NCBI GenBank assembly: GCA_913009825.1
Contig: CAJVYQ010000049.1
Coordinates: forward strand, 1-40,496
Origin: an uncultured Deferribacteres bacterium
Lineage (GTDB): Bacteria > Zhuqueibacterota > JdFR-76 > DREG01
Reading direction: 5' to 3'
Length of the DNA stretch: 40,496 nucleotides
Every line of letters starts with the position of its first letter. Within the stretch, counting starts at the first letter, position 1. The notes under the pieces are model-generated. The model saw only the letters and a program-made list of their open reading frames with translations, was not told the origin of the DNA and searched no databases. The translations under genes and the position numbers were made by a program. Below, piece after piece: positions 10,246 through 30,036 of this stretch.

Positions 10246-10414
10246 TGTCTGTCCGAAAACTCGGGAAATATGTCATTCCGAGCGGAGTCCCGATGGTTTT
10301 TATCGGGACGGAGTCGAGGAATCTGTATGTTACAATAACTTAAAGGGTTAAACAGATTTATCTCCGCCTTTTGGCGGATCGAAATGACAAAAAAAGGGTG
10401 TTTTCGGACAGACA
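10246..10414. mobile_element. MITE-like element, family A copy 1
   Basis: Perfect 15-base inverted repeats tgtctgtccgaaaac (10246-10260) and its complement (10400-10414) bound a non-coding element. Inside, 10272-10324 carries a gtcattccga...gaggaatct repeat with a cccgatggtttttatcggg hairpin; the same interior repeat recurs at 20373-20443 and, inverted, at 30243-30312. A second element with related ends is at 22208-22331. Confidence 0.7.
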
Positions 10415-10421
10415 CTATTTA

Positions 10422-10575
10422 AACCTAAATTGAGCGATTCTTAGCTTGAAACAACCGGCTAAAGAGTTTTGTCATTCTGCCTGCCCGACCACAGGCGGAA
10501 AATAATCTTGTTCGTTCTGTGCACTAAACCAACAAGATTCCTACGGAATGACATTAGAATCGCTCAATTCAGGTT
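10422..10575. mobile_element. MITE-like element, family B copy 1
   Basis: Ends aacctaaattgagcgattc (from 10422) and agaatcgctcaattcaggtt (10556-10575) are inverted repeats with one mismatch over the shared 20 bases. The same ends bound a second, internally different element at 36833-36951. This copy starts seven bases after family A copy 1 ends and stops three bases before the lipB stop codon. The core includes a gtcattctg...cggaatgac palindrome. Confidence 0.75.
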
Positions 10576-10578
10576 AAA

Positions 10579-12921: not shown

Positions 12922-13515
12922 TTAACCACCAAGCTGGTAACGAACAAATCGCTTAATTTTGATATTTTCACCGATCTTCGCCCTGACATCGCTGAGCACA
13001 TCTGCAACCGGCCTTTCCGGTTCACGAATATACGATTGCTCCATCAAACAAACTTCCTGATAAAATTTATCCAGTTTCCCCTGAGCAATCTTTTCCAAAA
13101 TATGATCCGGTTTTCCGGTATTCTTCGCCTGCTCTTTGTAGATATTCATTTCCTTTTCGATCTGCTCAGGCGAGAGATCCTCCCGGTTAACAACCAGTGG
13201 ATTTGCAGCAGCTACCTGCATGGCCATATTCCGCACAAACTGTTTGAACTCGTCATTTTTGGCCACAAAATCCGTTTCGCAATTGACTTCGATCATAACG
13301 CCAATGCGGTTTCCCGGATGAATATACGCTTCAATCAATCCTTCTTTGGTTTCCCTGCTTTCCCGCTTTTTGGCAGAGGCCATCCCTTTTTTCCGCAGCC
13401 ATTCAACCGCTTTTTCCAAATCACCATCATTCTCCTGTAATGCTTTCTTACAATCCATAATTCCGGCGCCGGTTTTTTCCCGTAGTTCTTTTACCAATCC
13501 CGCTGAAATTGCCAT
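12922..13515 (-). CDS. tsf: Elongation factor Ts (short form)
   Basis: EF-Ts exchanges GDP for GTP on EF-Tu. The N-terminal UBA-like domain (LVKELREKTGAGIMDCKKAL) and the EF-Tu-contacting TDFVAKN motif (81-87) are present. At 197 residues it is much shorter than the E. coli protein and resembles the single-core short form known from Thermus and some other lineages. It ends in IKRFVRYQLGG, a normal family C-terminus, so it is not truncated. Upstream AAGGG serves as a modest ribosome binding site. It is flanked on both sides by hairpin terminators, which would let tsf levels be set separately from rpsB and pyrH. Confidence 0.96.
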   Translation of the reverse strand: MAISAGLVKELREKTGAGIMDCKKALQENDGDLEKAVEWLRKKGMASAKKRESRETKEGLIEAYIHPGNRIGVMIEVNCETDFVAKNDEFKQFVRNMAMQVAAANPLVVNREDLSPEQIEKEMNIYKEQAKNTGKPDHILEKIAQGKLDKFYQEVCLMEQSYIREPERPVADVLSDVRAKIGENIKIKRFVRYQLGG

Positions 13516-13549
13516 ATTTTTCTAACCCTTATCAAATTAATTTTATATG

Positions 13550-13577
13550 AAAAAGCACTCTTTTGATCGAGTGCTTT
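13550..13577 (-). terminator. Hairpin terminator or attenuator between rpsB and tsf
   Basis: A 9-base-pair perfect stem (aaagcactc 13552-13560 with gagtgcttt 13569-13577, 8-base loop) is followed by a short T-run on the minus strand. It lies in the 169-base rpsB-tsf gap, close to the tsf start, so partial readthrough into tsf is likely. Confidence 0.6.
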
Positions 13578-13684
13578 ACATTCTACCCATATCCACTCAG
13601 AAACCCAGAATTGCCGGTTCCTCCTTTTTCCTATTGTTTCAAGTCATTTCCCGCAAAAAGAGGCTTACATCACGATCGGTAAAA

Positions 13685-14431
13685 TCAGGCTTCTTCTTTT
13701 TCAACCAATTCATCTTCGCCTTCGCTTTCCGCCTCGGTCATCATGCGATTCTCCTGCAGCCCTTCAATCACCGCTTCAACAAAAGCATGCGTAACCAAAC
13801 CGACCGATTTAAACGCATCATCATTGGCAGGGATCGGATAATCGACTTCATCCGGATCGCAATTTGTGTCGATGATTGCAAAAACCGGAATGTTCAATTT
13901 CCTTGCTTCGGCCACAGCGATAGCTTCCTTTTTGGGATCTACGATAAAAATGGCCCCGGGCAAAATGTTCATATCCTTGATACCGCCAAGTACTTTTTCC
14001 ATTTTGATCCGTTCCCGTTCCAGGTGAAGGGTCTCTTTCTTGGTTATTTTTTCATAAGTACCGTCGGAACTCATTTTTTCCAGATTCTTCAGATGCTTGA
14101 TGCTCTTTTTAATAGTGCTGAAATTGGTTAGCGTGCCGCCCAGCCACCGGTCGGTCACATAATACATGCCGCATCTTTCCGCTTCGGTCCTCACAATATC
14201 TTTGGCCTGTTTTTTCGTCCCGACAAAAAGCACTTTTTCACCTTTGCCAACGATATTTTTTACTGCGGCAAAAGCTTCGTTCAGTTTCTCTAACGTTTTC
14301 TTTAAATCGATAATATGAATCCCATTTCTTTCCATGAAGATATATTTCTTCATCTTCGGATTCCATTTTCTGGTCAAATGACCAAAATGAGCACCACCCA
14401 TTAAAAGCTGTTCCAATAAAACTTCCGGCAT
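13685..14431 (-). CDS. rpsB: 30S ribosomal protein S2
   Basis: S2 binds the 30S head-body junction. The 248 residues show the family start [19 protein letters not shown], the middle [12 protein letters not shown] and RWLGGTLTN, and [16 protein letters not shown]. The C-terminus is an acidic tail ([15 protein letters not shown]). AGGAGATATTGA upstream of ATG 14431 is a good ribosome binding site. It follows rpsI with a 60-base gap and precedes tsf, continuing the ribosomal block. Confidence 0.98.
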
Positions 14432-15676: not shown

Positions 15677-16933
15677 TCATTTATTTGAGATGATACTTAA
15701 TTTCTCCGCCACACCGGACAGGGTATTTTCCACTTCTATGGGATGATTTTCGACTGCCCGCAGCGCGTTGTCCACATCTTTCAAACCATTTCCGGTTACC
15801 AGCACAAGAGAAGTGTCATGCGGTTTGCAAATTCCTGAGTCGATAAGTTGCCGCAATCCCGCCAGCCCCGCCGCGGCCGCGGGCTCGGCAAAAACTCCTG
15901 TTGTTCTTGCCAACAGGGGGATGGCAGATAATATATCCCTGTCGCTGACACGGATGTACATGCCCCCGGATTCCCGTACCGCCCGCAGCGCTTTCAATTG
16001 ATCCCGTGGTACACCGACGGCAATACTATCTGCCACCGTTTTAGGAATTACAGGTTTAACAGCCGAAGCGCCATTCTCCCATGCTGCAACCAGAGGCGCA
16101 CTGCCTTCCGCCTGGACGCCGATCAGCTTGGGCAAACGCGTAATCAAACCCAATTGATAAAACTCGCAGAACCCTTTCCACACACTCTGAATGATACATC
16201 CGTCGCCCACCGGAACAAAAACGTAATCCGGTACCTCCCATTCGAGTTGCTCACAAATTTCAAAAGCAGCGGTTTTTTTCCCTTCGGCTAAGTAGGGATT
16301 TACGGCGGTACTGCGATTATACCAACCCCATTTTTCCGCAGCAGCGCAACACAAATCGAAAGCGTCATCATAAGTTCCGTTCACTAAAAGCACTTCGGCG
16401 CCGTAAATGAGTAACTGCGCCACTTTTGCCCGGGGAGCGTCTTTGGGCACAAAAATGATATTTTTCAGCCCGGAAATCGCCGCGAAAGCAGCCCAGGACG
16501 AGGCTGCATTTCCCGTAGAAGCGGCTGTTACAATAGCGACATTTTGTTCTTTTGCCTTCACGATGGCCACAGCGCTGGCCCGGTCCTTAAACGATGCTGT
16601 GGGGTTAACACCGTCATTTTTAATCCGGATATTCCTCACGCCCCACTTTTCTTCAAGCTTGACGGCACGATAGACAGGCGTCCAGCCGACGTGTAAATCG
16701 GGAATCATTGTCGGCTGCGATACCGGTAAAATGGGCAAATAACGCCAAAGTGAAAAAACAGGATTTTTTCTTAAAAAATCCTTAGTCAGTTTACGGCCAA
16801 TTTCCGTATAGTTATAAATTACATCCAGTGTACCTAACAGAGGTCCGCACAGGGGACAAGTGTATTCAATTTGATCGACGGAATATTCTGTTCCACAGGT
16901 ACTACATTTCAGTTTTATGCTGTTCGGTTTCAT
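15677..16933 (-). CDS. thrC: Threonine synthase
   Basis: This PLP enzyme converts O-phosphohomoserine to threonine. From ATG 16933 it has 418 residues. A rubredoxin-like zinc ribbon (C10, C13, C26, C29) opens the protein, as in many bacterial and archaeal threonine synthases. The PLP lysine is K117 in NPTASFKDRAS, and VTAASTGNAASSWAAFA binds the phosphate. The frame is open 12 codons further, but ATG 16933 directly precedes the zinc ribbon. It begins 41 bases after the ssnA stop on the same strand. That position probably reflects shared transcription rather than pathway logic, although diaminopropionate and threonine-type PLP enzymes share this fold, so the substrate could be checked. Confidence 0.9.
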   Translation of the reverse strand: MKPNSIKLKCSTCGTEYSVDQIEYTCPLCGPLLGTLDVIYNYTEIGRKLTKDFLRKNPVFSLWRYLPILPVSQPTMIPDLHVGWTPVYRAVKLEEKWGVRNIRIKNDGVNPTASFKDRASAVAIVKAKEQNVAIVTAASTGNAASSWAAFAAISGLKNIIFVPKDAPRAKVAQLLIYGAEVLLVNGTYDDAFDLCCAAAEKWGWYNRSTAVNPYLAEGKKTAAFEICEQLEWEVPDYVFVPVGDGCIIQSVWKGFCEFYQLGLITRLPKLIGVQAEGSAPLVAAWENGASAVKPVIPKTVADSIAVGVPRDQLKALRAVRESGGMYIRVSDRDILSAIPLLARTTGVFAEPAAAAGLAGLRQLIDSGICKPHDTSLVLVTGNGLKDVDNALRAVENHPIEVENTLSGVAEKLSIISNK

Positions 16934-16974
16934 CTCATTTCCCAAAATTTTGATCAGCAGTAAACACAACTACG

Positions 16975-18303
16975 CTACAAACGCGCCCAAAGTTTTTTGG
17001 CCTTTTCTCTTGCCCCGGCCAAAATCTTTTCTTCGTCGCAAACTAAAATCTCACCATCTTTCATTAAAAACTTCCCTCCTGCCATGGTCGATTCCACCGT
17101 GGAGTTTGCAAATCCGAAAAGTAAATGCTGCCAAAAATTATCGCCATACAGAGGTGTGGGCGGATCATATTTCACAAAAATGAGATCGGCGCACACTCCC
17201 GGCTGCAACCGCCCCAAGCTAATCTGGAAAATATCCGAGGCGATCCGGGCATGATTCCCGGTCACTATTTTTTTCAGCCACTCTCCGCCGGCGCGCGGAT
17301 CACGTTTTTCATGTTTTGGTAACAGCGCTGCCGCCTGAATTTCCCGAAACAGATTGGTGGTCATTCCATCTGTGCCAAGTCCAACCATAAGACCGGCATC
17401 GATCATTTTTGTAACATCGGCAAAACCAACGCCGTTGTTCATATTGGATTGCGGATTGTGAACAACGGTCACGCCGCATTCCTTTAGGATCCGGCGTTCT
17501 TTTTCATCCACATCAATCGCGTGTGCGGCGATGCTGTGATCCCGTAAAATTCCCAGTTTTTTCAGGCGCTGCACGGGAGAACGGCAGCCATATTTTCGTT
17601 TTGTTTCCCGGCGGTCTGTTTTTCCTTCGGCCAGATGAAAATGGAATCCCAGATTCAACCCATCCGCAGCTTCCCGGCAAGCTCTCAGCGTTTCATCGGA
17701 CAGGGTGAACGAAGCATGCAACCCAAACAGGGCCGCTATCGATGGGGATGGTTGCCGGGCGCATTTTTCGGCAAAGCGGATATTTTCTGCTATTCCCGCC
17801 CGGGCAATCTTTTCACCATCGCGATCAGATACTTCGTAACTCAGGCAGCCGCGCAATCCCATCTCTGCGAAAACTGCCGCCAAAATATCCAAACTCCCCG
17901 CCACAGAACCGGGACCGGCATGATGATCAAATAGTGTGGTGGTGCCGGATTTTATGCTGTCGATCAGAGCAACATAAGCGCTGAAGCGGATATCTTCCGG
18001 AGTGAGTTTTTTATCCAGACGCCACCAAAATTTCTGCAGAATTTGTAAAAAATTTTCAGACGGCTCACCATTTACAGGAATTCCTCTTGCCAGCGCGCTG
18101 TAAATATGAAAATGAGGAATGATCATTCCCGGCAAAATGAACCGTTGGCGGGCATCATATTTTTCTTCTTCGCCATATTTTTTTGCCAATAGCGAGCCGG
18201 TGCCGATCTCCTCAATCAACCCGTTGCGAACCAGAATGGCGCCATGCTCAATAAAGCTGTTTTGAGGATCAAACGTGATGATGTTGGCATTGTAAATAAG
18301 CAT
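16975..18303 (-). CDS. ssnA: SsnA-type aminohydrolase (amidohydrolase superfamily)
   Basis: This 442-residue TIM-barrel metallohydrolase resembles SsnA, the amidohydrolase found in bacterial purine-breakdown and selenate/Mo-hydroxylase gene clusters. Metal ligands are visible: H64 and H66 in PHFHIYSALARG, H223 in FHFHLAEG, H261 in AHAIDVDE and D312 in GLGTDG. The TTTLFDHHAGP segment (121-131) is typical of the SsnA group. It probably removes an amino group from, or opens, an N-heterocycle, but the substrate is not established. It is the last gene of the Mo-hydroxylase/PreTA run and is followed by thrC. A hairpin at 18326-18344 sits in its leader, and ATG 18303 has AGAGAG upstream. Confidence 0.85.
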   Translation of the reverse strand: MLIYNANIITFDPQNSFIEHGAILVRNGLIEEIGTGSLLAKKYGEEEKYDARQRFILPGMIIPHFHIYSALARGIPVNGEPSENFLQILQKFWWRLDKKLTPEDIRFSAYVALIDSIKSGTTTLFDHHAGPGSVAGSLDILAAVFAEMGLRGCLSYEVSDRDGEKIARAGIAENIRFAEKCARQPSPSIAALFGLHASFTLSDETLRACREAADGLNLGFHFHLAEGKTDRRETKRKYGCRSPVQRLKKLGILRDHSIAAHAIDVDEKERRILKECGVTVVHNPQSNMNNGVGFADVTKMIDAGLMVGLGTDGMTTNLFREIQAAALLPKHEKRDPRAGGEWLKKIVTGNHARIASDIFQISLGRLQPGVCADLIFVKYDPPTPLYGDNFWQHLLFGFANSTVESTMAGGKFLMKDGEILVCDEEKILAGAREKAKKLWARL

Positions 18304-18325
18304 GAAAAATTTCTCTCTAAAAAGA

Positions 18326-18344
18326 AGGTTTTATTGTAAAACCT
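18326..18344 (-). terminator. Hairpin with T-run in the ssnA leader
   Basis: An aggtttta/taaaacct stem (loop of three) is followed on the minus strand by TCTTTTT, 22 bases before the ssnA start. It could terminate or attenuate transcription entering ssnA. The stem is AT-rich and the case is weak. Confidence 0.35.
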
Positions 18345-18402
18345 CACTTATTGGTGTGAATATTTGTTTATGTTATTATATCTATTCAACCAAAATAGTA
18401 AA

Positions 18403-18487
18403 CAGAACACGGATGACACGGATCACGCTGATTTTCACAGATTTTATCCGTGCGTATCTGTGTCATCCGCGTAATCCGTGTGCTATT
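18403..18487. repeat. Dispersed palindromic repeat of the cacggat type
   Basis: The arms cacggatgacacggat and atctgtgtcatccgcgtaat, then ccgtgtgcta, are imperfect inverted repeats around attttcacagattttatccg. This kind of cacggat-rich palindrome is widely scattered in environmental bacterial genomes. It is non-coding and lies between preA and ssnA. Confidence 0.55.
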
Positions 18488-18597
18488 TGGGGTTATGGAA
18501 CATTAGATGAGCAACATAAATACCTGATGTAAACAGAACTTGAATCTTTTAGCGCTGATTGCATTTTATTATCAACCCGTAAGTGAGGTATTACGTT

Positions 18598-18885
18598 TTA
18601 TTTAATGATTATCATTTTTCTTACCAATAAAAATTTTCTATTACCGGCAGCGGTTGCACAAAGGCGATAAAAATACATTCCCGCCGGCAGGGGACGTAAA
18701 GATTGATCGCTTCCATCCCGGTTTACACCCTAATTTCCGGATTGTTGAAATCGATCGACCAAACAACGAACCTCACGGCCAAGCATATCAAATACGGAAA
18801 TTTTGACATGAACCGCAGAAGAGAGACCGTATTCAATTGAAGTACTGTTTTGAAATGGGGCCGGATAACTTTGTTTCAATTAATA
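18598..18885 (-). pseudogene. Remnant of a T9SS C-terminal sorting domain
   Basis: The minus strand reads QSYPAPFQNSTSIEYGL, then VHVKISVFDMLGREVRCLVD and, after a frame change near 18735, DGSDQSLRPLPAGMYFYRLC and finally KFLLVRKMIIIK with a stop at 18598-18600. This is a decayed type A sorting domain (normal form YPNPFNPSTTI...GREV...DG...SGIY). Intact versions end the two VIT-domain proteins at 32288 and 34523. The frameshift, an upstream in-frame TAA and the absence of any body domain show it is dead. It is probably the last trace of a deleted secreted protein that once separated preA and ssnA. Confidence 0.75.
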
Positions 18886-18969
18886 AGTGCCCGGAACGGA
18901 TTCTGTGCCACCCTCTGTACCAAGTCTGCATGTGCCGGTGAGATTTTCATCATCTAAACAAATTCAACC

Positions 18970-20187
18970 TCATCTGATTTCGATGCAGCCATCAACCGGG
19001 CAAACCTGTTTACACAGTCCGCAACCTTCACATTTCTCCTCGCGCAGCAAAGGAATCCGTGAGGCGTCTCGCAATTCTATTGCTTCATGGCCACCGTCGC
19101 GACAGGCCACAAAACAAAGTTCACAGCCGATGCAGGAATCAATGTGAATACGGCACTTCACATCTTTCCGGCGCAGGGAATCATGATCGACAATATTGGG
19201 CAGCGCTTTCCCGATGATTTCCCGCACAGATGCGAACTCCATTTCGGCTAAATAGTGGGACAGGCCGCTGGTCAGATCGTCGATGATGCGAAAGCCGTAA
19301 TGCATCACCGCGGTGCAAATTTGCACATTTTCCGCACCGACGGCCATAAATTCTACCGCATCCCGCCAATTGGATGCGCCGCCGTTACCGGAAATTGGAA
19401 TATCCACATTTTTGGCTATTTCCGCAATGGTGCGCAGCGTGATCGGTTTGATAGCCGGTCCCGTTAAACCGCTGTAGGTCGATTGACCATCCAAGTTCGG
19501 CATGGGCGCAAAAGAATGGATATCAACGCCCATCAAAGCCGGCATCGAATTGGAGGCCGTAATCCCATCGGCTCCGGCTCGTTTAATCGCGGCGGCAATT
19601 TTTACAATATCCGTCACCTGTGGGGTGATCTTAATCAGAACTGGTACTTTATTGCCGGCTTCTTTTACCCAGCGTGCGGTGATCTCGGCGGCATGCTCGC
19701 TCTGCGCCAACATTTTTCCGGGATCTTCGCCGATATTTCCCTGCGGACAACTGAACGAACACTCGATCAGATCCACGCCCGCATTTTCCAGTCGGCTCAC
19801 CAGCGTCTGCCAATCCTCTTTTTTTGAACCCATGATGCTGGCGCCGATCAGCTTGGTTGGAAATTGTTTTTTAAGAATGCGGACCCGCTCTGTCACTTCG
19901 TCAATATGATACCGGCTGATCAGATCGATATTGCCCATGCCGAGGAGGCGCTTATCCTCCCAATCCAGACCGGATATCATGGGATAGGCAAGATCAACTT
20001 TTGTCCCGGGCATGGAGGTTGTTTTTAAGATCAACCCCGCCCAACCGGCTTCAAGTCCCCGTGCGGCCATTGACAATTCATCGGTCGAAGGAGCAGCGGA
20101 GAGCAGAAAGGGGTTCTCCAACTGTAAGCCGCAAAATTCTACAGAGAGATCACGCAAAGGATAAAGCGGTATTTGTCTTTGATTCAT
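18970..20187 (-). CDS. preA: PreA-type dihydropyrimidine dehydrogenase subunit
   Basis: PreA carries the FMN/TIM-barrel active site of NAD-dependent dihydropyrimidine dehydrogenase, which interconverts uracil or thymine and their dihydro forms. From ATG 20187 it has 405 residues, near the E. coli length. The frame is open to 20265, but homology begins at LRDLSVEFCGLQLENPFLLS. ECSFSCPQG (C147) matches the catalytic cysteine loop, and ISGNGGA binds the flavin phosphate. The C-terminus is a two-cluster ferredoxin (C352, C355, C358, C362 and C386, C389, C392, C396). The partner preT is upstream on the same strand but is separated by a large nested repeat (20312-20783). Next to two Mo hydroxylases and ssnA, it may act on a purine-derived ring rather than uracil. 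Confidence 0.88.
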   Translation of the reverse strand: MNQRQIPLYPLRDLSVEFCGLQLENPFLLSAAPSTDELSMAARGLEAGWAGLILKTTSMPGTKVDLAYPMISGLDWEDKRLLGMGNIDLISRYHIDEVTERVRILKKQFPTKLIGASIMGSKKEDWQTLVSRLENAGVDLIECSFSCPQGNIGEDPGKMLAQSEHAAEITARWVKEAGNKVPVLIKITPQVTDIVKIAAAIKRAGADGITASNSMPALMGVDIHSFAPMPNLDGQSTYSGLTGPAIKPITLRTIAEIAKNVDIPISGNGGASNWRDAVEFMAVGAENVQICTAVMHYGFRIIDDLTSGLSHYLAEMEFASVREIIGKALPNIVDHDSLRRKDVKCRIHIDSCIGCELCFVACRDGGHEAIELRDASRIPLLREEKCEGCGLCKQVCPVDGCIEIR

Positions 20188-20372
20188 GTCATCATATCTT
20201 GTCAGGATTATTTCCCTTTCTTCGTTATTGAAATTCATGCAACATTTTAATTCATTTAAAAACAAATAGTAATACTCAGGCAGTTATTTCTCAATGCTCT
20301 CATTAGACATCGTAACACTTTAGTTCTTTGAAAAGTAGACGATCTGTTAGCAACCTATATCTACAAAAACAT

Positions 20373-20443
20373 GTCATTTCGAATGCCTGTCCGACTCAGG
20401 CGAGGAATTTCGATAGTTTTTATCGGGACGAAACGAGAAATCT
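20373..20443. repeat. Dispersed gtcattTCga repeat, copy 2
   Basis: It starts gtcatttcga, contains gatagtttttatcgggacga and ends gagaaatct. Related copies are at 10272-10324 and, in inverse orientation, 30243-30312. All three share the gtttttatcggg core and the gtcatt and aatct edges. Confidence 0.6.
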
Positions 20444-20455
20444 TTTTATAAATAT

Positions 20456-20633
20456 GAGTCCACTCTAAAAAGGGGCTAAAGCCCCTCATCATCTTGATTA
20501 TTCGATTTAAACCCCGCCCTAAAGGACGGGGCTAATCGATGAATATAAAATATGTTAGCCCCGACATTCATGTCGGGGCAAAAGAGCAAACAATTATTAT
20601 TCTAAGCCCTTCAGGGCTTTTTAGAGTGAACTC
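20456..20633. repeat. Innermost palindrome with four tandem tight hairpins
   Basis: It is bounded by gagtccactctaaaaa (20456-20471) and tttttagagtgaactc (20618-20633), matching at 15 of 16 positions. Between them are four hairpins with two-base loops: ggggctaaagcccc (20472-20485), ccccgccctaaaggacgggg (20512-20531, one mismatch), a perfect 10-base-pair stem gccccgacat/atgtcggggc (20558-20579), and aagcccttcagggctt (20604-20619). There is no ORF. As RNA it would be highly folded on either strand. Confidence 0.7.
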
Positions 20634-20871
20634 AAATATACAAAGATACGTGAGATTCCTCATCCCGAAAAGCGAGGATTCGCCCGCCTGCACGGGCAGG
20701 CCTGCCTGCGTGGCAGGAAATGACATCATTTGAACCTATTTATATGATAAAAAACATAACTTTTCAAAGAACTAAAGTGTTACTATGCATCTATTTTTGT
20801 CTCTCGTATGGATTCCCAATAAGAGCATTTGGGAATGACAGCGTGGAATTTCATTTCAAATAACCAAACGA

Positions 20872-22131
20872 TTATCTTATCTGTAAATAGTCATAAATCG
20901 CCCGCGCGGCTTTTTTACCGTCCGCCACGGCCTGCACGACGGTTCCTTCGCCGCGCGCCAAATCCCCGCCGGCAAAGACGCCCGGAACGGAAGTCATATA
21001 ATTTTCATCCACACTCACAACGCCGTTGGCCGACTGTTCGATGACCGGTTCAAAAAAAACGGAGGAATCCTGTCCGATGGAAACAAGCACGGCATCGGCA
21101 GGGATTTTCAGTTCGGAGGATGAAACGGGTACGGCAATTCTTCTGTTGGAATCGTCGGTTTTTTCGGACATTCTGGTGCGCACACAGCGCAGACCGGTTA
21201 CCCGGCTGTTTTCACCTGTAATTTCAACAGGCTGCAACTGATAACCAAACCGGACACCGGCTTCCTGTGCGGCTTTCTTTTCCGCCTGCCATGTTTTCAT
21301 CTCCGCGGGACTGCGACGGTAGGTCAGAAGCACCTGCTCCGCACCCAGTTTTTTTGCCGTGGCGGCCACATCCAGAGAAACATTACCGCCGCCGATCACA
21401 ACTACATTTTTATATGCTGCCAATCGTTCCGCACCGGACCGCGCCAGGCTCAGATAATCGATAGCATGGTAAACATCCGGCATCTCTTCACCCGGAATTT
21501 CCAGCCACCGGTCCAGCCACAATCCGGTAGCAATGAAAATGATCCGGTATTTTTTCTTAAATTCCGCCAGTGACACTGTTTTGGTCAGAACCTGTGGCGC
21601 AGGCAAATAGCGATGTAAAAATTGCAGATCGTAATCCAGCGCACCGAACGCCAAACGCCACGAAGGGATAATATGCGCGGGCACACCACCGGACTTTTCA
21701 AACCGGTCAAACAAGCGGCACCCGGTCCCCATTTTTCGCAATTCAAAAGCACAGCTCAATCCGGCCGGCCCGGCGCCGATAACAGCAACATCGACCGGCT
21801 CATGCAGCGAAGTGGGAATTTGAGGTTCGGAAAAACCCTTTTCGCTTTCGAACCGTGTGGCAAAATCGTGCAACTGCCGGATCGCAACCGGTTCATAAAT
21901 CTGCGCTCTGCAGCAAACGGACTGACAAAATATCTCCTCCGGGCAGATCTGCCCGCAAATATTTGCCAGCGTATTAGCCGATTTGATCTCCTCCGCCGCG
22001 CCGATGACGTTCCCGCTTTTGAGCATACGAATGAAACGGGGAATCGGAATATGAACCGGACAGGCCTGTTCACAGGGAGCATTGTAACACTGCAGGCAGC
22101 GGGACGTTTCGTAAATTAAAGAATTGTGCAT
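20872..22131 (-). CDS. preT: PreT-type NAD(P)-dependent flavoprotein (GltD-like)
   Basis: PreT delivers electrons between NADH and PreA through FAD and Fe-S clusters. The 419 residues start with a GltD-like cysteine domain (C12, C15, C20, C24 and C59, C63, C69, C73), then the FAD motif VAVIGAGPAG (115-124) and the NAD(P) motif VVVIGGGN (243-250), and end with GVFAGGDLARGEG. Members of this family also serve as the glutamate synthase small subunit, but no gltB is near, and preA follows downstream, so PreT is the better call. Upstream is the 2Fe-2S subunit of a Mo hydroxylase, after a 259-base gap holding a family A element. No clear ribosome binding site precedes ATG 22131. Confidence 0.85.
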   Translation of the reverse strand: MHNSLIYETSRCLQCYNAPCEQACPVHIPIPRFIRMLKSGNVIGAAEEIKSANTLANICGQICPEEIFCQSVCCRAQIYEPVAIRQLHDFATRFESEKGFSEPQIPTSLHEPVDVAVIGAGPAGLSCAFELRKMGTGCRLFDRFEKSGGVPAHIIPSWRLAFGALDYDLQFLHRYLPAPQVLTKTVSLAEFKKKYRIIFIATGLWLDRWLEIPGEEMPDVYHAIDYLSLARSGAERLAAYKNVVVIGGGNVSLDVAATAKKLGAEQVLLTYRRSPAEMKTWQAEKKAAQEAGVRFGYQLQPVEITGENSRVTGLRCVRTRMSEKTDDSNRRIAVPVSSSELKIPADAVLVSIGQDSSVFFEPVIEQSANGVVSVDENYMTSVPGVFAGGDLARGEGTVVQAVADGKKAARAIYDYLQIR

Positions 22132-22207
22132 AAGTAATTTTCTTGACCCGTTTATAAATGATTGTTTTTTTATAACACTTTAGTGTCTTAAAAAATTTCA
22201 GCAAGCA

Positions 22208-22331
22208 CTAATTAGTATCTGTCCGAATGTGTCATTCCCGCATGCTCTTAGCGGCCTGCCTGTTGCAGACAGGCAGCTTAAAGACTGCCGGAATGAAAAT
22301 AGCGTGGGTATTTTCGGCCAGACACTAATTA
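22208..22331. mobile_element. MITE-like element, family A copy 2
   Basis: The ends ctaattagtatctgtccgaa (22208-22227) and ttcggccagacactaattaa (22312-22331) are inverted repeats at about 17 of 20 positions and match the ends of the element at 10246-10414. The interior differs: it carries gtcattcccg, a gcctgcctg...cagacaggc hairpin (about 22254-22274) and ccggaatga. It separates preT from the upstream 2Fe-2S subunit gene. Confidence 0.65.
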
Positions 22332-22390
22332 AAGTCCGTGAATTATATTTGAAAAGACGCAACCTCTCCGGAATTCCACATTCCCGGTAT

Positions 22391-22867
22391 TTAGTCGGTT
22401 TCACCCTTTTTCCCCACGTCTCCAATTGCTTCCACAATTTGCTGATAACCGGTACACCGGCATAAATTACCGGCAATGGCCTGTTTGATCCCGGTTTCCG
22501 TGGGATTTTGTTTTTGCTGTAATAAAACATAAGCGCTCATCAGCATCCCCGGCGTGCAGAAACCGCAATGAACGGCATCATGATTTAGAAACGACTGCTG
22601 CAACGGATGGTATTCACCGTTTCGCATCAGGCCTTCCACGGTCATAATTTTGCTGCCATCCGCCTGCGGCGCCAATATCAGGCAGGAATTCACCGCTTCT
22701 CCATTCATGACCACGGTACAGGCGCCGCACTCACCAATTTCGCAGCCGCGTTTGGTACCGGTTAATCCGAGTCGCTCACGTAAAATATCCAGCAGGGTTT
22801 CATTGGGCGAAACCGAAACCTCATATTCATTGTTATTCACTAAGAGTTGTATTTTGATTGTCTTCAT
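22391..22867 (-). CDS. Mo hydroxylase 1, 2Fe-2S subunit (XdhC/CoxS family)
   Basis: This small subunit of a xanthine-dehydrogenase-family enzyme relays electrons from the Mo centre to FAD through two 2Fe-2S clusters. The 158 residues hold the plant-ferredoxin cluster (C42, C47, C50, C62) and the helical-domain cluster (C101, C104 in CGFCTPGM; C136, C138 in LCRCTGY). All eight ligands are intact. It starts 20 bases after the FAD subunit gene. The order FAD then Fe-S is the reverse of the second enzyme (Fe-S then FAD), so the two sets are not a simple tandem duplication. Confidence 0.93.
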   Translation of the reverse strand: MKTIKIQLLVNNNEYEVSVSPNETLLDILRERLGLTGTKRGCEIGECGACTVVMNGEAVNSCLILAPQADGSKIMTVEGLMRNGEYHPLQQSFLNHDAVHCGFCTPGMLMSAYVLLQQKQNPTETGIKQAIAGNLCRCTGYQQIVEAIGDVGKKGETD

Positions 22868-22887
22868 TTCCGTATTTCCGGGATGTT

Positions 22888-23781
22888 CTAAACTAAAAAT
22901 CGATCACCGCAATTCTTCAATTCCGCCCAAGCCTGCATGAGCGCTCTTCTCACCAAAACGGGAATCACCGGTTCCTTGTATTCCGTAGACCAGCGCCGGC
23001 CGGAAACACGTATCATCTCTTCGGCTACCTGTTGCCCTGCCGTTCGAAAAAGTTTTTCCGAAGGCGTCTCGCCGGTTAATAATTTTTCAGCGCTTGCCAT
23101 CCTTGCGGCCGTCGGCATAACCGAACCGGCGGCGATGCGAGCTTCGTTAATTTTATTCCGGTCATCCATTTGTAAAACAACCGCTGCATTCATCCGGGCA
23201 ATGGACATGGCGTTTCTTCGCCCCAGCTTGATGAAAGCCGAGCCAAAGCTGCCGGTGATTTTTTTCAGATGAAAAGATGTCACCATCTCATCCCGGCACA
23301 AATCGGTTTGATACGGATGAATTAGAAATTCCGCCAGAGGCAGCAACCGGGTATTTTGAGAAGACCGGATTTCAACTATGGCGTCATAAGCCAACAAGGC
23401 GGGAATAGAATCTGCGCAGGGAGAAGCGTTGCAGATATTCCCGCCCAGCGTGCCCCTGTTTCTAGTTTGAACCGAGCCTATTGTTTTTACCGCAGCATTG
23501 AGAGCAGGAAAATAATTTCGGATAATTTCCGATTTGATGATTTGGGAATGGGATATTCCTGCGCCGATGCGGACGGTTGTTCCGTCTTCATTAACTTGTT
23601 TAATTGCATAAAGTCGCGAAATATCAATCAAGCGGATTTTTTCCGTTTCAGCATTTTTACGCAGATCAATCAGTAAATCCGTTCCGCCTGCCAAAAGCCG
23701 GTTTTTGTATTTGTGGTTCGACAATATTTCTAACGCCGCAGTTAAATTTTCTGCGCGAATGTATTCTAAATTGGGTATCAT
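22888..23781 (-). CDS. Mo hydroxylase 1, FAD subunit (CoxM/XdhB family)
   Basis: This subunit carries FAD and passes electrons to NAD+, ferredoxin or another acceptor. The 297 residues show the FAD motifs AGGTDLLIDL (31-40) and GTLGGNICNASPCADSIP (110-127), then the CO-dehydrogenase flavoprotein C-terminal domain. No extra 4Fe-4S insert of the 4-hydroxybenzoyl-CoA reductase type is seen. GGTGA lies 11 bases before ATG 23781. The Mo subunit gene is upstream after a 174-base gap with two palindromes, and the 2Fe-2S gene follows after 20 bases. Confidence 0.93.
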   Translation of the reverse strand: MIPNLEYIRAENLTAALEILSNHKYKNRLLAGGTDLLIDLRKNAETEKIRLIDISRLYAIKQVNEDGTTVRIGAGISHSQIIKSEIIRNYFPALNAAVKTIGSVQTRNRGTLGGNICNASPCADSIPALLAYDAIVEIRSSQNTRLLPLAEFLIHPYQTDLCRDEMVTSFHLKKITGSFGSAFIKLGRRNAMSIARMNAAVVLQMDDRNKINEARIAAGSVMPTAARMASAEKLLTGETPSEKLFRTAGQQVAEEMIRVSGRRWSTEYKEPVIPVLVRRALMQAWAELKNCGDRFLV

Positions 23782-23824
23782 TTCGGTTTTGTCACCATTT
23801 CTGATTCTGTTGATTAAGTTTGAA

Positions 23825-23940
23825 AACCCTCCCGCAAGTTTTTCCTGATAAAATAATTGGAATATTCAGGCTCAGATTAATCAATTCAGAGTAACCTGCG
23901 GGAGGGTTATAAATTTCCCGGTCGATTCAGCGAATCGACC
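23825..23940. repeat. Two palindromic repeats in the Mo hydroxylase 1 operon
   Basis: aaccctcccgcaagtt (23825-23840) pairs with aacctgcgggagggtt (23893-23908), matching at 15 of 16. Immediately right is the perfect palindrome ggtcgattcagcgaatcgacc split by one base (23920-23940). A related ggcgattcgctgaatcgcc lies inside the element at 36833-36951. They sit between the Mo and FAD subunit genes and would form strong RNA hairpins, without a T-run. Confidence 0.6.
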
Positions 23941-23955
23941 TACATTCTCCGCGCT

Positions 23956-26299
23956 TTAGCCCAAAAAGTTTTCCGAACCGCGCGCGCCGCTCCCGGCTAA
24001 TTTGTGCCCCAACAAAACCTGCTCCAGATTCGCCGGAAGTTGATAAATCCTTTTCCCGGTAGCGTTGGCAATGGCATTGATGATCGCCGGAGCGGCAATC
24101 TCATTTGCCGGTTCGCCGATCGATTTTGCTCCGAACGGCCCAACCGGATCGGGATTCTCCACAATCCGGCATTCAACCTGCGGCACATCCAGCGCCGTGG
24201 CTAAAAGATATTCATCAAAATTTAATGCTGTGGGGCTCCCTTGATTAAAATTAAATTCCTCCAGCAGGCCGTAACCAAGTCCCATTGCCACACCGCCGTA
24301 AATTTGCCCCTCTACCATGGCCCGGTTGATGGCTCTGCCGACTTCATGAGCCGCATAAAATTTTGAAACTTTCACTTTTCCGGTTTCCGTATCCACTTCC
24401 ACTTCGGCCACATTGGCGCCGTAAACGAAGGTGAAATAAGCGTCTCCCCGGCCGGTTTCTTCATCCCAGGTGGTTTTAGGAGACTTAAACCAGCCGAAGC
24501 CGAACAGGGATACACCGCGTTGGAAACAAGCATCCGCAACCCGGGAAAATGTCACTTTTCGGCCGGTCTCGGCATCAATAAAATGATTCTTTTGCACCAC
24601 AATATTTTCCGGATTGTCCGCATCAATCAAATGGGCGGCAACGGGCTTCATGGCAGTCAACACTTTTTCCGCCGCGCTTTTTGCCGCTGAACCTCCCATG
24701 ATAGTTGTACGGGAAGCAACCGTCGGGCCGGAATCGGGCACCCGGCTAGTGTTGGTATTCAAAAATCGAACCCGCGCAAGAGAGATGCCCAGCACTTCAG
24801 CGGCAATCTGCGCAATGGCTGTTTGCGCGCCCTGTCCCATATCCGTCAACCCGGAGGAGACAATCAAACTGCCGTCCGTCTGCACGGAAACGATCACGCC
24901 GGCGGCATCGGCGCCCTCCGCGCCCAGAGAAACGCCGCGGTAACTGCAAGCCAGGCCGATTCCTTTTTTGACCGGATATGCTTTCCGACGTTCGTTCCGG
25001 TTTTGTCCCCACTTCCGGGCAAAATCGCTGATTCCGGCAACCTCGTTCAGCACTTCAATCAAACTCACTTTGTGGCGCAATTTTTGGCCGGTTGCAGTAA
25101 CATCGCCGTCTCTGAAAACAACTTTCAGCCGCAGTGTTAACGGATCCATTTGTAATTTTTCAGCCAGTTCATCCATCAGCGTTTCAGAAGCAAAACAGAC
25201 TTGCGGCGAGCCAAATCCCCGCATGGCGCCGGTATAATTGTTGTTGGTATACACGGCAAGCGTATCGGTTTTCACATTTTTGCAGCGATAAGGCCCGGTT
25301 GCCTGCACCACGGAACGCCAGGTAACAAAGGCAGAAGTGGAAGCGTACGCGCCGCCATCTGCAATACACCTGATTTCAAAAGCAGTCGGGGTTCCATCCC
25401 GTTTGGCGCCCAGTTTGTATTCCATGTTATAGGGATGGCGTTTGTAAGATTCCAGCATGGATTCTTCACGGGAATTGACCATTTTCACCGGCCGGCCGGT
25501 TGCCATCGTCAGCAGCGCCGCCCTGCAGCACAACAGAGTCGACGCCTCATCCTTGCCGCCGAACGATCCGCCTAAAGTTGCCTGTTTAATCTGCACCTGC
25601 GCCAAATCCAGATTCAGCACTTCCGCCACGGATCTTCTGGTGGAGAACAGATTCTGCACAGAACCCGTGATGCGAACGCCGCCCTGTTCATCCGGTTCCG
25701 CCAGAACCGCTTCCGGTTCCAGATAGGAATGCTCGATATGCTGTGTTTGATAGCGCCGTTCCAACAGGATATCCGCCTGTGAAAATCCTGATTCCACATC
25801 CCCTTTTCTCACTTTGTGATGGGAAAAAATGTTGCTCCCTTCATGGATAGAAGGAGCCTCCGGCTTCATCGCTTCATCAGGAGAGGAGAGCACGGGCAAT
25901 TGTCGGTAACTTACGCTGATGTGCCTGAGGGCGCGGCCGGCAATCTCCCGGGTTTCAGCGGCAATCAGGACAATACCGTCGCCCAAATAGCGTGCTTTAT
26001 CGCTCACCAGCACCTGTTGATTTTTTGTGACGATACCAAAAGTCTTGCTGCCCGGAATATCCGCGGCAGTCAGCACAGCCGCTACGCCGGGCAACCTGCG
26101 AACCGCTGATACATCAATTGAAAGGATTTTTGCGTGGGGGATATTTTGCGCGAAGCACTTTGCCGTATAGTTGATGCAGGGCATTGTAATCTTCAGCGAA
26201 CTTAGCTTTGCCGGTTACTTTGCCGAATCCATCGACGCGCGGCTCCGGTTTCCCGATGATCGAATATTTATGCTGAGTCAAATAAATTCCCTGTTTCAA
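23956..26299 (-). CDS. Mo hydroxylase 1, molybdopterin subunit, with a frameshift near the N-terminus
   Basis: This is the catalytic subunit of a xanthine-dehydrogenase-family enzyme, which hydroxylates an N-heterocycle with water-derived oxygen. The main frame runs from 26184, but the true N-terminus lies in another frame: IIGKPEPRVDGFGKVTGKAK, then LYGKVLRAKYP, from a TTG at 26299. The two join as KYP-HAKILSID if one base is removed from the run of five C (26136-26140 on the plus strand as ggggg), giving 780 residues. Mo-site motifs are intact: GGSFGGKDEAS, AMRGFGSPQ, TDMGQGAQT, PDSGPTVASRTT and the base-catalyst glutamate in KSIGEPANE. All the rest of the protein is open, so an assembly or sequencing error is likeliest, with real decay or programmed shifting as alternatives. 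It lies between FAD2 and FAD1. Confidence 0.88.
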
Positions 26300-26370
26300 T
26301 ATTCTTCGTGACTTTGTGCCTTTACGGCAAAAGTTTCTGAATTATGCCGGCTGACACTTACTGTGACAAA

Positions 26371-27264
26371 TCAGGACAAAAAGCTTTGTAATCCCATGGC
26401 CAACAATTCACCCGTCATGGCTCTTCGGTATTCACGGGTTGAGCGAATATCGGTGATCGGCTGCGCTTCGTTGCTGCAGATGCTTTTTGCCTCAGCAATT
26501 ATGCTTTCTGAAATTTGCCGGCCGGATAAAAATCGTGCGGTTTTTTCGGCCACAATCGGCGTAGCGCCAACCGCGCCAAGGGCAATTCTTACATCCCGCA
26601 GCCTCTTTTTCTCCTTCACGGCGAGAAATGCAACATTCAGCTTGGCGATTGCCGCTCCTTTTCTTTGTCCCAGTTTGTAAAAAAACTGGGCTGTTTCTCC
26701 TTCCGGCACGCGAAATTCGATCTTTGTGAGCAATTCATCTTTACACAGCAGTGTTTCCTGAGCGCCGGTGAAAAATGATTGCAGCGCCATTTTTCGTTCT
26801 CCCTTCACGCTCTGTAACGTGATTTCGGCGCGTAAGCAGAGGAGAGGCGGAACCGTATCGGCGCAGGGCGATCCGTTGCAGATATTCCCACCGACAGTGC
26901 CGACATTTCTGATCTGCTGTGAACCAACTTTTCCGGACGCTTCACCCAGGAATGGGATTTTCTCCCGCAATGTTTCGTTGTTAACAATTTCGTCATGTTT
27001 CAGCAGAGGCCCCAGAGAAACGGTACAATCCCGGACAGAGATGAAATGCAGCTCGGCTATGCGTGAGACATCCACAATCTGCAGCGGCTGCAGCATCCAC
27101 GGTTTTGCCGGTCGCTTCCGCAGTCGTTCGATATGCTCATCCCGGTGCATCTGCGCCATCAGATCCGTGCCGCCGGCAATCACCTTCGGATTAACAAGAA
27201 AAGCAAGCAGCGTCAGCGCTTCCTGCAAATTTTGCGGTTGATGAAATGATTCTATTTTTGTCAT
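26371..27264 (-). CDS. Mo hydroxylase 2, FAD subunit (CoxM/XdhB family)
   Basis: The 297-residue FAD subunit of the second Mo hydroxylase has AGGTDLMAQM (30-39) and GTVGGNICNGSPCADTVP as FAD-binding motifs and the C-terminal domain of the family. It begins one base after the stop of the 2Fe-2S gene, so translation is likely coupled. The Mo subunit gene of enzyme 1 follows 71 bases downstream, joining the two enzymes in one run. It is clearly related to the FAD subunit at 22888 but has diverged well beyond a recent duplication. Confidence 0.93.
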   Translation of the reverse strand: MTKIESFHQPQNLQEALTLLAFLVNPKVIAGGTDLMAQMHRDEHIERLRKRPAKPWMLQPLQIVDVSRIAELHFISVRDCTVSLGPLLKHDEIVNNETLREKIPFLGEASGKVGSQQIRNVGTVGGNICNGSPCADTVPPLLCLRAEITLQSVKGERKMALQSFFTGAQETLLCKDELLTKIEFRVPEGETAQFFYKLGQRKGAAIAKLNVAFLAVKEKKRLRDVRIALGAVGATPIVAEKTARFLSGRQISESIIAEAKSICSNEAQPITDIRSTREYRRAMTGELLAMGLQSFLS

Positions 27265-27265
27265 T

Positions 27266-27727
27266 TTAACTGTTTATATTTGGCACATCCTCAATTGCTT
27301 CAACTATTTTTTGATACCCCGTGCAGCGGCACAAATTACCGGCGATGGCATGTTTGATTTCACCGGCAGAGGGTTGTTTGCCTTCCAACGCCAGCGCATA
27401 AGTTACTACAATCATTCCGGGCGTGCAAAATCCGCATTGAACCGCGCCATGACCGGCGAAGGAGGCAATTATTTTTTGTCCGGTTTGGGTTTCCCGGATT
27501 CCTTCAATGGTTGTAATACTACGATGATTGGCCTGCGCCGCCAGCAGCAAACAGCTATTCACCGGCTTGCCGTCTAACAAAACGGTGCAGGCGCTGCATT
27601 CCCCTGCGCCGCAGCCTTCTTTGGTTCCGGTTAAAAACAGATCGTAGCGCAGAAAATCCAGCAATCTGCGCTCCGGCGGAACTTCCCGTTCTGTTTTTTT
27701 ACCATTCACGGTGATTTCAACAAGCAT
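27266..27727 (-). CDS. Mo hydroxylase 2, 2Fe-2S subunit (XdhC/CoxS family)
   Basis: This 153-residue electron-transfer subunit has all eight cluster ligands: C39, C44, C47 and C59 in the ferredoxin domain, and C98, C101, C133 and C135 in the helical domain (CGFCTPGM, LCRCTGY). GAGG lies eight or so bases before ATG 27727. It follows the Mo subunit gene by 41 bases and precedes the FAD subunit gene by one base. Confidence 0.94.
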   Translation of the reverse strand: MLVEITVNGKKTEREVPPERRLLDFLRYDLFLTGTKEGCGAGECSACTVLLDGKPVNSCLLLAAQANHRSITTIEGIRETQTGQKIIASFAGHGAVQCGFCTPGMIVVTYALALEGKQPSAGEIKHAIAGNLCRCTGYQKIVEAIEDVPNINS

Positions 27728-27768
27728 CTATCTTACCTCGACCGTAAACCATTTTTCAGACAAAGACG

Positions 27769-30036
27769 CTAAACCATGCCGGCATTCAGTAACTCCCACA
27801 CTTTCTCCGCGGTTGCCGGTAATTCGGTGATTCGCACTCCGACAGCGTCCTGAATGGCATTCACCAGCGCCGGCGCCATTCCCATCAACGGCTGTTCGCC
27901 AAACCCTTTTGCGCCAAACGGACCCTCCCGGAAGGGATGTTCCACGATGATGGGTGTAATTCGGGGAGCATCTTCGGCAGTTGGAATCATGTATGTGGCA
28001 AAATCGGTGTTCATGATCCTTTCGCCATTCGTGGACATATCTTCCATCAATCCGTATCCCAACCCCTGCACACTGCCGCCCTCTATTTGTCCTTCCGCCG
28101 TTTGCGGATTAATGGCTTTGCCGATATCATGGGCAGCCCATACTTTTTCCAGCGTGGTTTCTCCGGTGCGCACATCGACGGCAACCTGAACGATATTTGT
28201 GGCGTAGGCATAAACCACATACGCTTTCCCCTGACCGGTTTCAGGATCCCAACCGGTATCTGGAGAAACGGCAAATCCCTGAACTGCCATGGGTTTGCGA
28301 AGTTCATGGCATTTTTTTACCACATGGGAAAAGAAAATTTTTTTAGTTTGATCCGCGAAAAAACAACCGTCCCGGAATTGAACCGATTCCGGCGCCGCTT
28401 GCAGCATCTCCGCAGCAACGGCAATCATAATTGACTTCACCTGTTCACAGGCATTTAGAATGGCCAGGCCGGACATGGTCGTCGCCCGGGAGGCCACTGT
28501 AGGGCCGGAATCCGGCACCCGGGAAGTATCTACGGGGAGAATGGCGACCGATTCGTATGACACAGCCAAACACTCTGCGGCAATTTGGCGCAGCACGGTT
28601 TGCATCCCCTGTCCCATCTCCGTCGTTCCCACGGCAATCTGCACGGATGCATCTTCATCGATCTGCAGAAATGCCCCGGTGCGTGCCAATTGCTTTCCCC
28701 CGGCTCCTAAGCCAACGCCGTAAAAAATGGTGGAAATACCCAAACCATGCCTGACCGGTCCGGTTTGCCGGGAAAACTTCTTCTTCAGATTCAGCCAATC
28801 GGATTGCTGCATTGCCTGTTCGAAGGTTTCTGTTAAACCGCAACTGCCAACAATTTTATAGCCGGTGGCCGTTGTTTCTCCTTCCTGCAATAAATTTCTG
28901 CGCCGTATTTCAGCGGTATCCAACCCGGTCAGGCGCGCCAGTTCATCTAAAGCGGATTCCACGGCAAACAGCACCTGCGGCGAACCGAATCCGCGATAAG
29001 CGCCGCAGGGTACGTGGTTGGTAGCCACCGCGTACGCATCCACTTTTACATTGGGCACGGAATAGGCACCGGCGGCATGAACCGCTCCCCGCCAGAGCAC
29101 AACCGGTGACAGCGTTGCGTAGGCGCCGCCGTCAATCACGTATTTTGTTTCCACAGCTAAAAGTTTCCCGTTTTCATCGCAGGCCATTTTTATATCAACC
29201 CGGGAAGGATGACGTTTACTCATGGAAATCATATCCTCGTCACGGCGGTAAATCAATCGCACCGGTTTTTGCAGATAATGCGCCGGCAACGCCGCCTGTC
29301 CCGCCACAAGCGAAGGCACGTCCTCTTTTCCGCCGAAAGCGCCGCCCGTGGTTGCCTGCTTTACACGGACTCTCGCCAGCGGCAGTCCGGTTACATCGGC
29401 AACGGTTCCCTGTACGTAAAACGGACATTGCATGGAACCGGTGACAAGCAGACCGTCATCCTCCGGTACCGCGATCATCCCCTGCGGTTCAAGATAAGCG
29501 TGCTCCTGGTAGGGTGTGCGGAATGTGCCGGAAAATATGAAAGCTGCTCCGGTAAAAGCGGCTTCCACATCTCCTTTTCTAATTTTATAGTGAGAAAAGG
29601 TGTTTCGGTCTTTGTAAATTTGCGCGGCAGTTTTACTTCGGGCCTGTTCAAAATCGGTTACGGCGGGAAGGGGTTTGTACTCGATTTCGATTAAATTCAG
29701 AGCGGTTCCGGCAATTTGCTCATCGCGGGCAGCCACAACAGCAACAGGTTCTCCTGCATAACGAACAATTTTTTCAGCCAGTAAGGGCTGATCATCCCGG
29801 ATAACATGAACGATATTTTTACCGGGAATATCTTTTGCCCAAAGAATCGCCGCCACGCCCTCAAGCCGGCGCGCCGGCCGATCGTCCACTTTTAATATTT
29901 TGGCGTGCGGAAAAGGGGAGCGCAGCACCGCGGCATGGAGCATACCCGGAAGCAAATCATCTGCAACGAATACGGCCCTGCCTTCCGCTTTGGATACGGC
30001 ATCGTTACGAATGACACTTTTTCCAATAACAAACAT
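27769..30036 (-). CDS. Mo hydroxylase 2, molybdopterin subunit (XDH family)
   Basis: This 755-residue catalytic subunit starts GKSVIRNDAVSKAEGRAVFV, the usual N-terminal a/b hammerhead domain. It has GGAFGGKEDVPS, AYRGFGSPQ, TEMGQGMQT and DSGPTVASRATTMSG around the Mo-pterin, and the catalytic glutamate in KGFGEQPLMG. The GEQP form differs from GEPA in the first enzyme, as do nearby residues, so the two probably act on different rings or positions. The substrate cannot be assigned from sequence; hypoxanthine/xanthine-type purines are the natural guess given ssnA and preTA downstream. It is the first gene of the nine-gene leftward run. No Mo-cofactor insertion (XdhC chaperone) or MobA-like gene is in the window. 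Confidence 0.92.
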   Translation of the reverse strand: MFVIGKSVIRNDAVSKAEGRAVFVADDLLPGMLHAAVLRSPFPHAKILKVDDRPARRLEGVAAILWAKDIPGKNIVHVIRDDQPLLAEKIVRYAGEPVAVVAARDEQIAGTALNLIEIEYKPLPAVTDFEQARSKTAAQIYKDRNTFSHYKIRKGDVEAAFTGAAFIFSGTFRTPYQEHAYLEPQGMIAVPEDDGLLVTGSMQCPFYVQGTVADVTGLPLARVRVKQATTGGAFGGKEDVPSLVAGQAALPAHYLQKPVRLIYRRDEDMISMSKRHPSRVDIKMACDENGKLLAVETKYVIDGGAYATLSPVVLWRGAVHAAGAYSVPNVKVDAYAVATNHVPCGAYRGFGSPQVLFAVESALDELARLTGLDTAEIRRRNLLQEGETTATGYKIVGSCGLTETFEQAMQQSDWLNLKKKFSRQTGPVRHGLGISTIFYGVGLGAGGKQLARTGAFLQIDEDASVQIAVGTTEMGQGMQTVLRQIAAECLAVSYESVAILPVDTSRVPDSGPTVASRATTMSGLAILNACEQVKSIMIAVAAEMLQAAPESVQFRDGCFFADQTKKIFFSHVVKKCHELRKPMAVQGFAVSPDTGWDPETGQGKAYVVYAYATNIVQVAVDVRTGETTLEKVWAAHDIGKAINPQTAEGQIEGGSVQGLGYGLMEDMSTNGERIMNTDFATYMIPTAEDAPRITPIIVEHPFREGPFGAKGFGEQPLMGMAPALVNAIQDAVGVRITELPATAEKVWELLNAGMV

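Follow-up and report, generated by a model that had tools for sequence, protein, structure and literature searches.

A candidate reductive urate degradation island with a split PreT/PreA reductase and a threonine synthase-like enzyme in an uncultured Zhuqueibacterota bacterium

Which compound is degraded by the enzymes of a gene island that joins two molybdenum (Mo) hydroxylases to PreT, PreA and SsnA homologs, and does the island encode a whole pathway or only a part of one? The island lies on contig CAJVYQ010000049.1 of GenBank assembly GCA_913009825.1, a metagenome-assembled genome (5.1 Mb, 123 contigs, 96% complete) of an uncultured bacterium of the phylum KSB1 (Zhuqueibacterota); the window analyzed here is this entire contig of 40,496 nt (C49). 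A study of KSB1 that places it in the Fibrobacteres–Chlorobi–Bacteroidetes (FCB) group describes its members as likely facultative anaerobes and is silent on purines and urate (PMC11683472). A first-pass annotation, made from the letters alone, had described nine minus-strand genes as a candidate island for the breakdown of purines or other N-heterocycles. All nine were confirmed at their coordinates by family matches to Pfam and NCBIfam models, and their order of transcription is XdhA2, XdhC2, XdhB2, XdhA1, XdhB1, XdhC1, PreT, PreA and SsnA. A tenth gene of the same strand, which had been omitted, belongs with them: it encodes a threonine synthase-like (ThrC-like) pyridoxal phosphate (PLP) enzyme of the PALP family (15677–16969) and begins 5 bp past ssnA. 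The purine alternative was supported and could be narrowed, as the island most probably represents the upper half of the reductive (anaerobic) urate/purine degradation pathway together with a candidate for its last step, the middle steps being encoded on other contigs; we give this reading a probability of roughly 0.8.

This pathway was not worked out until 2025, and most of what is known of it comes from gut bacteria. In Escherichia coli, urate is reduced to yanthine by XdhD-YgfM (Li et al. 2025, PMC12507026). YgfK, or the PydA/PreA homolog UacX in Clostridioides difficile, then acts together with SsnA to give ureidomethyl-hydantoin, from which HyuA forms diureidopropionate, YgeW or UacY forms albizziin, and YgeY with YgeX forms pyruvate (PMC12507026). 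SsnA was described as a robust marker gene of uricolytic clusters, and KSB1 is not among the phyla listed for the pathway (PMC12507026). What is found here is apparently a variant form of it in an uncultured FCB-group phylum unnamed in that paper, in which two standard enzymes are replaced by unrelated or remodeled ones.

Pathway genes in the island and elsewhere in the genome

The SsnA protein (16975–18303) passed both of its NCBIfam models (PRK07203, 511.8 bits against a cut-off of 444; TIGR03314, 479.1 bits against 455.5). The first-pass annotation had seen no hydantoinase, ygeW or ygeY gene, transporter or Mo-cofactor chaperone, which is correct for this contig; however, a family-by-family search of the genome found these partners elsewhere. 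YgeY is encoded on contig C3 (15384–16532; TIGR03526, 508 bits, cut-off 321), and near it lies a gene for a YgeW-like carbamoyltransferase, for which YgeW was the best family (267 bits) and which is 75–81% identical to its counterparts in the cluster loci of relatives. HyuA was found on C113 (TIGR02033, 441 bits, cut-off 393) and a nucleobase permease on C6 adjoining a purE-like gene; C10 encodes both an XdhC/YqeB-type chaperone and a MocA-like protein. Among the other partners that had been proposed for a search, YgeX was not detected in this assembly and SelD gave no match above its cut-off at 96% completeness; the family search of this assembly also returned no N-terminal half of YgfK. Nearly all genes of the reductive urate pathway are present, distributed among three or more places in the genome.

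The gene set co-occurs in relatives, a point on which the first-pass annotation had made its proposal depend. In the Ignavibacteriae bacterium BY39 (L065), the unbroken order XdhA1-XdhB1-XdhC1-PreT/PreA fusion-SsnA-PALP490-YgeY-YgeW combines the genes of the window with those of contig C3, its YgeW being 75% identical to ours; unlike in the window, PreT and PreA are fused and PALP490-YgeY-YgeW follow directly, and neither XdhA2 nor a ThrC-like gene occurs on the stretch examined. A single KSB1 cluster (L140) holds HyuA, YgeW, YgeY, PALP490, the ThrC-like enzyme, Xdh, YgfK and SsnA, of which the first five are 55–81% identical to the dispersed genes of this genome (HyuA 55%). Across 59 genomes, YgeY was present in 20 of the 22 with ssnA as against 4 of the 37 others (p = 7e-10), and HyuA in 20 of 22 as against 5 of 37 (p = 3e-9). 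Horizontal transfer of the upper module was also considered and found unsupported, the SsnA of the window forming a long branch, with no supported sister, in the SsnA tree.

The functions are all assigned here from sequence, from gene neighborhood and from what has been published on homologs, and on this basis the following flow is proposed. XdhA2-B2-C2 would oxidize hypoxanthine and xanthine to urate, which XdhA1-B1-C1 would dehydroxylate with NAD(P)H to yanthine (2,8-dioxopurine), a reaction demonstrated for E. coli XdhD-YgfM. NAD(P)H electrons would then pass via PreT to PreA for the reduction of yanthine to dihydroyanthine (demonstrated for E. coli YgfK and C. difficile UacX), and SsnA would open the ring to give ureidomethyl-hydantoin, as demonstrated for the E. 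coli enzyme. HyuA, the YgeW-like carbamoyltransferase and YgeY would lead via diureidopropionate to 2,3-diaminopropionate (demonstrated with the enzymes of E. coli and C. difficile), and the ThrC-like enzyme might finally convert diaminopropionate to pyruvate and ammonia instead of YgeX. The scheme first suggested for the island (the Mo enzymes oxidize, PreTA reduces and SsnA hydrolyzes) keeps the order of its last two steps, but the key Mo step of the published pathway is a reduction, of urate to yanthine, and this is what homology would predict for one of the island's Mo enzymes.

Compared with the E. coli cluster (xdhD-ygfM, ygfK, ssnA, hyuA, ygeW, yqeA, ygeY, ygeX; PMC12507026), the SsnA, HyuA and YgeY families are shared, as are a Mo enzyme whose FAD subunit is NADH-linked, an FMN/Fe-S reductase that depends on NAD(P)H and a carbamoyltransferase of the YgeW/ornithine transcarbamoylase family. 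In contrast, YgfK appears to be replaced here by a split PreT and PreA with a changed pocket, XdhD by a three-subunit Mo enzyme of another clade and YgeX by the ThrC-like enzyme, while the genes are distributed over at least three contigs and no SelD exceeds its cut-off. The C. difficile UacX/UacY cluster is similar in that a PreA/PydA-type reductase stands in for YgfK; UacX, however, has no FAD domain and presumably relies on ferredoxin (PMC12507026), whereas here the PreT partner would bring in electrons from NAD(P)H.

The two Mo enzymes and the PreT/PreA reductase

Both Mo enzymes possess all three subunits, as had been claimed, but the molybdopterin subunit of the second is frameshifted as assembled. 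The first consists of XdhA2 (molybdopterin subunit, 27769–30036), XdhC2 ([2Fe-2S] subunit, 27266–27727) and XdhB2 (FAD subunit, 26371–27264), and the second of XdhA1 (23956–26281, main frame 23956–26184), XdhB1 (FAD subunit, 22888–23781) and XdhC1 ([2Fe-2S] subunit, 22391–22867). XdhA2 has equivalents of Glu802, Arg880 and Phe914 of bovine xanthine dehydrogenase (XDH), and XdhA1 has Asp at position 802 with Arg880 and Phe914 kept; Glu802 and Arg880 are, as we take it from XDH structures, purine-binding. Both proteins scored best with xanthine dehydrogenase models, and carbon monoxide dehydrogenase (CODH), PaoC and aldehyde oxidase models were far lower, so that the grouping with CO or aldehyde dehydrogenases that would have spoken against a purine role was not observed. 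XdhA1 falls in a ten-row clade (SH-aLRT 100) in which all other rows come from SsnA loci, its identity to the L065 protein being 67–68%, and XdhA2 groups with enzymes that accompany another XdhA in several clusters (L071, L096, L166). From this distribution we infer that XdhA1 would act as the urate dehydroxylase and XdhA2 as the xanthine dehydrogenase that feeds it, a division of roles that is less secure than the assignment to purines itself.

Two further Mo enzymes encoded in the genome were considered as the urate enzyme and set aside, since both are without the Glu/Arg purine signature: a 4-hydroxybenzoyl-CoA reductase-like fusion on C26 and the enzyme on C10 by the XdhC-type chaperone and the MocA-like protein. 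Glu606 of E. coli XdhD was tried as a marker and proved uninformative, its region not being alignable in other clades. A 4-hydroxybenzoyl-CoA reductase-like enzyme with fused Fe-S and Mo subunits (960 bits, cut-off 994.55) lies at L135 (4409–8284), outside the island.

PreT (20872–22131) is an NAD(P)H/FAD/4Fe-4S electron-input subunit by its family matches, and PreA (18970–20265) an FMN/2×4Fe-4S reductase that exceeded the cut-off of PRK08318 (442.7 bits against 335) and fits PF01180, the YgfK/UacX-type reductase domain; its homology starts at residue 36, and its true start is uncertain. The domain make-up is that of E. coli PreTA and mammalian dihydropyrimidine dehydrogenase (DPD). When aligned to pig DPD, the window PreA keeps Asn609, the catalytic Cys671 and Asn736 but differs at three positions (E611 to D, N668 to S and T737 to S), which leaves the uracil-contact set (N609, E611, N668, N736 and T737, with Cys671) incomplete; Glu611 and Asn668 are presumably, from DPD structures, uracil contacts. 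Every one of the 27 SsnA-linked PreT-PreA fusions has D611 and S668, like the window PreA, as against E611 and N668 in 10/10 rows of the pyrimidine type (pig DPD, the PreA of E. coli and eight PreA from loci without SsnA, several of them beside HyuA); the new split PreA at L214 and L215 were left out of this comparison. In the unrooted tree the window PreA and the fusions lie on one side of a branch with support 99/95, so that a single pocket change suffices. From pocket and tree, PreTA is likely to be a yanthine reductase, and the pair of residues offers a simple way to separate pyrimidine-type (E611/N668) from urate-type (D611/S668) PreA/PydA reductases in any genome. One exception is a split PreA at L055, which is SsnA-adjacent and keeps the pyrimidine-type residues. 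A search of 82 KSB1 genomes revealed no further split PreA nearer to that of the window, the remaining matches (E ≤ 1e-48) being separate pyrimidine-type genes or fusions; a genome of the same family (G002) has YgfK in place of PreTA.

Several related loci were observed in passing. The L055 locus (5421–11225, Tritonobacter) is a PreT-PreA-HyuA-SsnA cluster with the pyrimidine-type pocket. In a complete KSB1 uricolytic cluster (L166), a PreA-like protein (13171–14316) has no cysteine at the catalytic position in the alignment and is possibly a different kind of reductase. Separate PreT-PreA-HyuA operons of KSB1 relatives (L148 and L149) likely serve true reductive pyrimidine degradation.

The ThrC-like enzyme

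The ThrC-like protein scored 326.6 bits with the threonine synthase model PRK08197 (cut-off 303), and its best solved match by sequence is a threonine synthase (PDB 2zsj), with which it shares the fold-type II PLP enzyme family. In a tree of 66 PALP proteins, however, it fell into a clade of 42 rows (SH-aLRT 99), 39 of which come from SsnA or pathway loci, and the threonine synthases of the same phylum fell outside it. The Arg of the NPYRxEG motif (PYR.EG), which we take to be phosphate-binding in threonine synthase, is present in 10/13 comparison rows and in 2zsj but in 0/42 rows of the clade. Instead, Asp-Arg-Ala followed by Ser or Thr, Arg219 and Asp256 (window numbering) occur in 42/42, and the motifs DRA[ST], NR..A and PxGDG are invariant or nearly so.

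In the 59 genomes, members of this clade were found in 17 of the 22 with ssnA and in 1 of the 37 others (p = 1.5e-9). Among 80 SsnA loci, 26 carry the ThrC-like gene, three carry YgeX and none carries both. In G005 and G006, two KSB1 genomes from the same order, YgeX lies inside the SsnA clusters and the ThrC-like clade has no member; over the 59 genomes there was no overlap of the two, which is not significant alone (p = 0.31). Taken together, the tracking of SsnA, the lack of co-occurrence with YgeX and the pattern in G005 and G006 make replacement of YgeX by the ThrC-like enzyme the simplest reading, and the odds that this protein serves as the terminal lyase in YgeX's place (2,3-diaminopropionate ammonia-lyase) appear about even. 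Default annotation probably labels members of the clade as threonine synthases, and the clade would provide a new route for the last step of the urate pathway if the prediction holds. A broader proposal, which we consider just as apt to fail as to hold, is that the clade forms a new ammonia-lyase family, whose substrate would be 2,3-diaminopropionate or, directly, a ureido precursor and which took the place of YgeX independently in many environmental phyla, and that the split PreTA is an early-branching yanthine reductase, still of two subunits, that links the pyrimidine and urate reductases.

A second PLP protein, PALP490 (CysK-like, 491 aa; L133, 11671–13146; contig C3), adjoins YgeY and is conserved at 53–71% identity in SsnA/YgeY clusters of several phyla. 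It was considered as the YgeX substitute and is less likely in that role, as it accompanies the true YgeX in G005 and G006 as well as the ThrC-like enzyme in other clusters. In two genomes of the same family, G002 and G001, a third kind of PALP protein (L154, 11527–12594; L155, 2–778), about 31% identical to PALP490, lies beside YgeY; neither YgeX nor a member of the ThrC-like clade was found in these two genomes.

Alternative readings and minor features of the window

Several findings weigh against the urate reading or parts of it. The pathway genes are scattered over several contigs of the assembly, which leaves common regulation unsupported. XdhA1 lies outside the XdhD clade and has nothing alignable to the Glu606 region, so that synteny is the basis for both its reaction and its direction. 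At 267 bits, the YgeW-like protein falls short of the YgeW cut-off (453 bits) and is nearly as close to ornithine carbamoyltransferases. By overall sequence the window PreA is nearer to pyrimidine-type PreA (44%) than to the fusions (34–38%). The YgeX cases are few, and PALP490 accompanies both YgeX and the ThrC-like enzyme. Finally, xdhA1 is frameshifted at a run of five C (26136–26140, minus strand), its N-terminal ~47 codons (TTG at 26281) being in another frame than the main one, so the enzyme of the second step may be non-functional if the shift is real and not an error of the assembly. The expected reading is given by the intact Ignavibacteriae ortholog in L065.

This frameshift, together with a repeat-invaded preT-preA gap and a gene relic between preA and ssnA, might mean that the island is a decaying remnant. 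We regard this as improbable: the other 742 codons of xdhA1 are free of stops and retain the active-site residues, none of the other reading frames is truncated, the insertions fall between genes, and the C5-run indel may itself be an assembly error. Of similarly low probability is that the ThrC-like gene is the ordinary threonine synthase of the cell, located beside ssnA by chance; its score above the threonine synthase cut-off and its being the sole match in this assembly (E ≤ 1e-30) agree with that, whereas the clade apart from the threonine synthases of the phylum, its own invariant residues in place of the typical Arg and the co-occurrence with SsnA do not.

The remaining alternatives concern the substrate, and both are more doubtful still. 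If PreTA were a true dihydropyrimidine dehydrogenase, SsnA and HyuA could be hydrolases of reductive uracil and thymine degradation and the Mo enzymes unrelated neighbors, in keeping with the PreA score, the presence of HyuA in the genome and the separate PreTA-HyuA operons of relatives (G015:C3, G042:C490); this is very unlikely given that E611 and N668 are lost, that PreA lies between Xdh and SsnA (as in L065) rather than adjoining HyuA, and that neither SsnA nor YgeY is known to act in a pyrimidine pathway. Slightly less credible again is the degradation of another N-heterocycle (nicotinate, quinoline or pterin) by re-use of an SsnA-type hydrolase and a PreTA-type reductase. The specificity of Mo hydroxylases is hard to predict from sequence, and the best solved matches of the Mo subunits by score are 4-hydroxybenzoyl-CoA reductase and XDH, but the XDH-type residues of both Mo subunits, the low scores with CODH, PaoC and aldehyde oxidase models and the downstream urate-pathway enzymes in the genome argue for urate.

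The gaps between preT and preA (606 bp) and between preA and ssnA (666 bp) are too long to fit a single tight operon. Most of the former is filled by an interspersed repeat (20308–20787, no strand assigned) with 29-nt terminal inverted repeats (97%), which is not part of the pathway; it has 42 partial matches across the genome, one internal part being 98% identical on C29, and it looks like a short non-coding mobile repeat. In the latter gap, a relic of a type IX secretion system (T9SS) C-terminal sorting domain with an internal stop was read by eye at ~18600–18870. To the left of the ThrC-like gene lie genes that we take, by eye, to be rplM, rpsI, rpsB, tsf, pyrH and frr. At ~27–70 of the window, and at the start of a minus-strand open reading frame ending at 4064 of L134, the ends of the reading frames resemble translated Illumina adapter (RSEEHTSELQSH; VTGVQTCALPIS), so that untrimmed adapter was probably left in the contigs at these sites.

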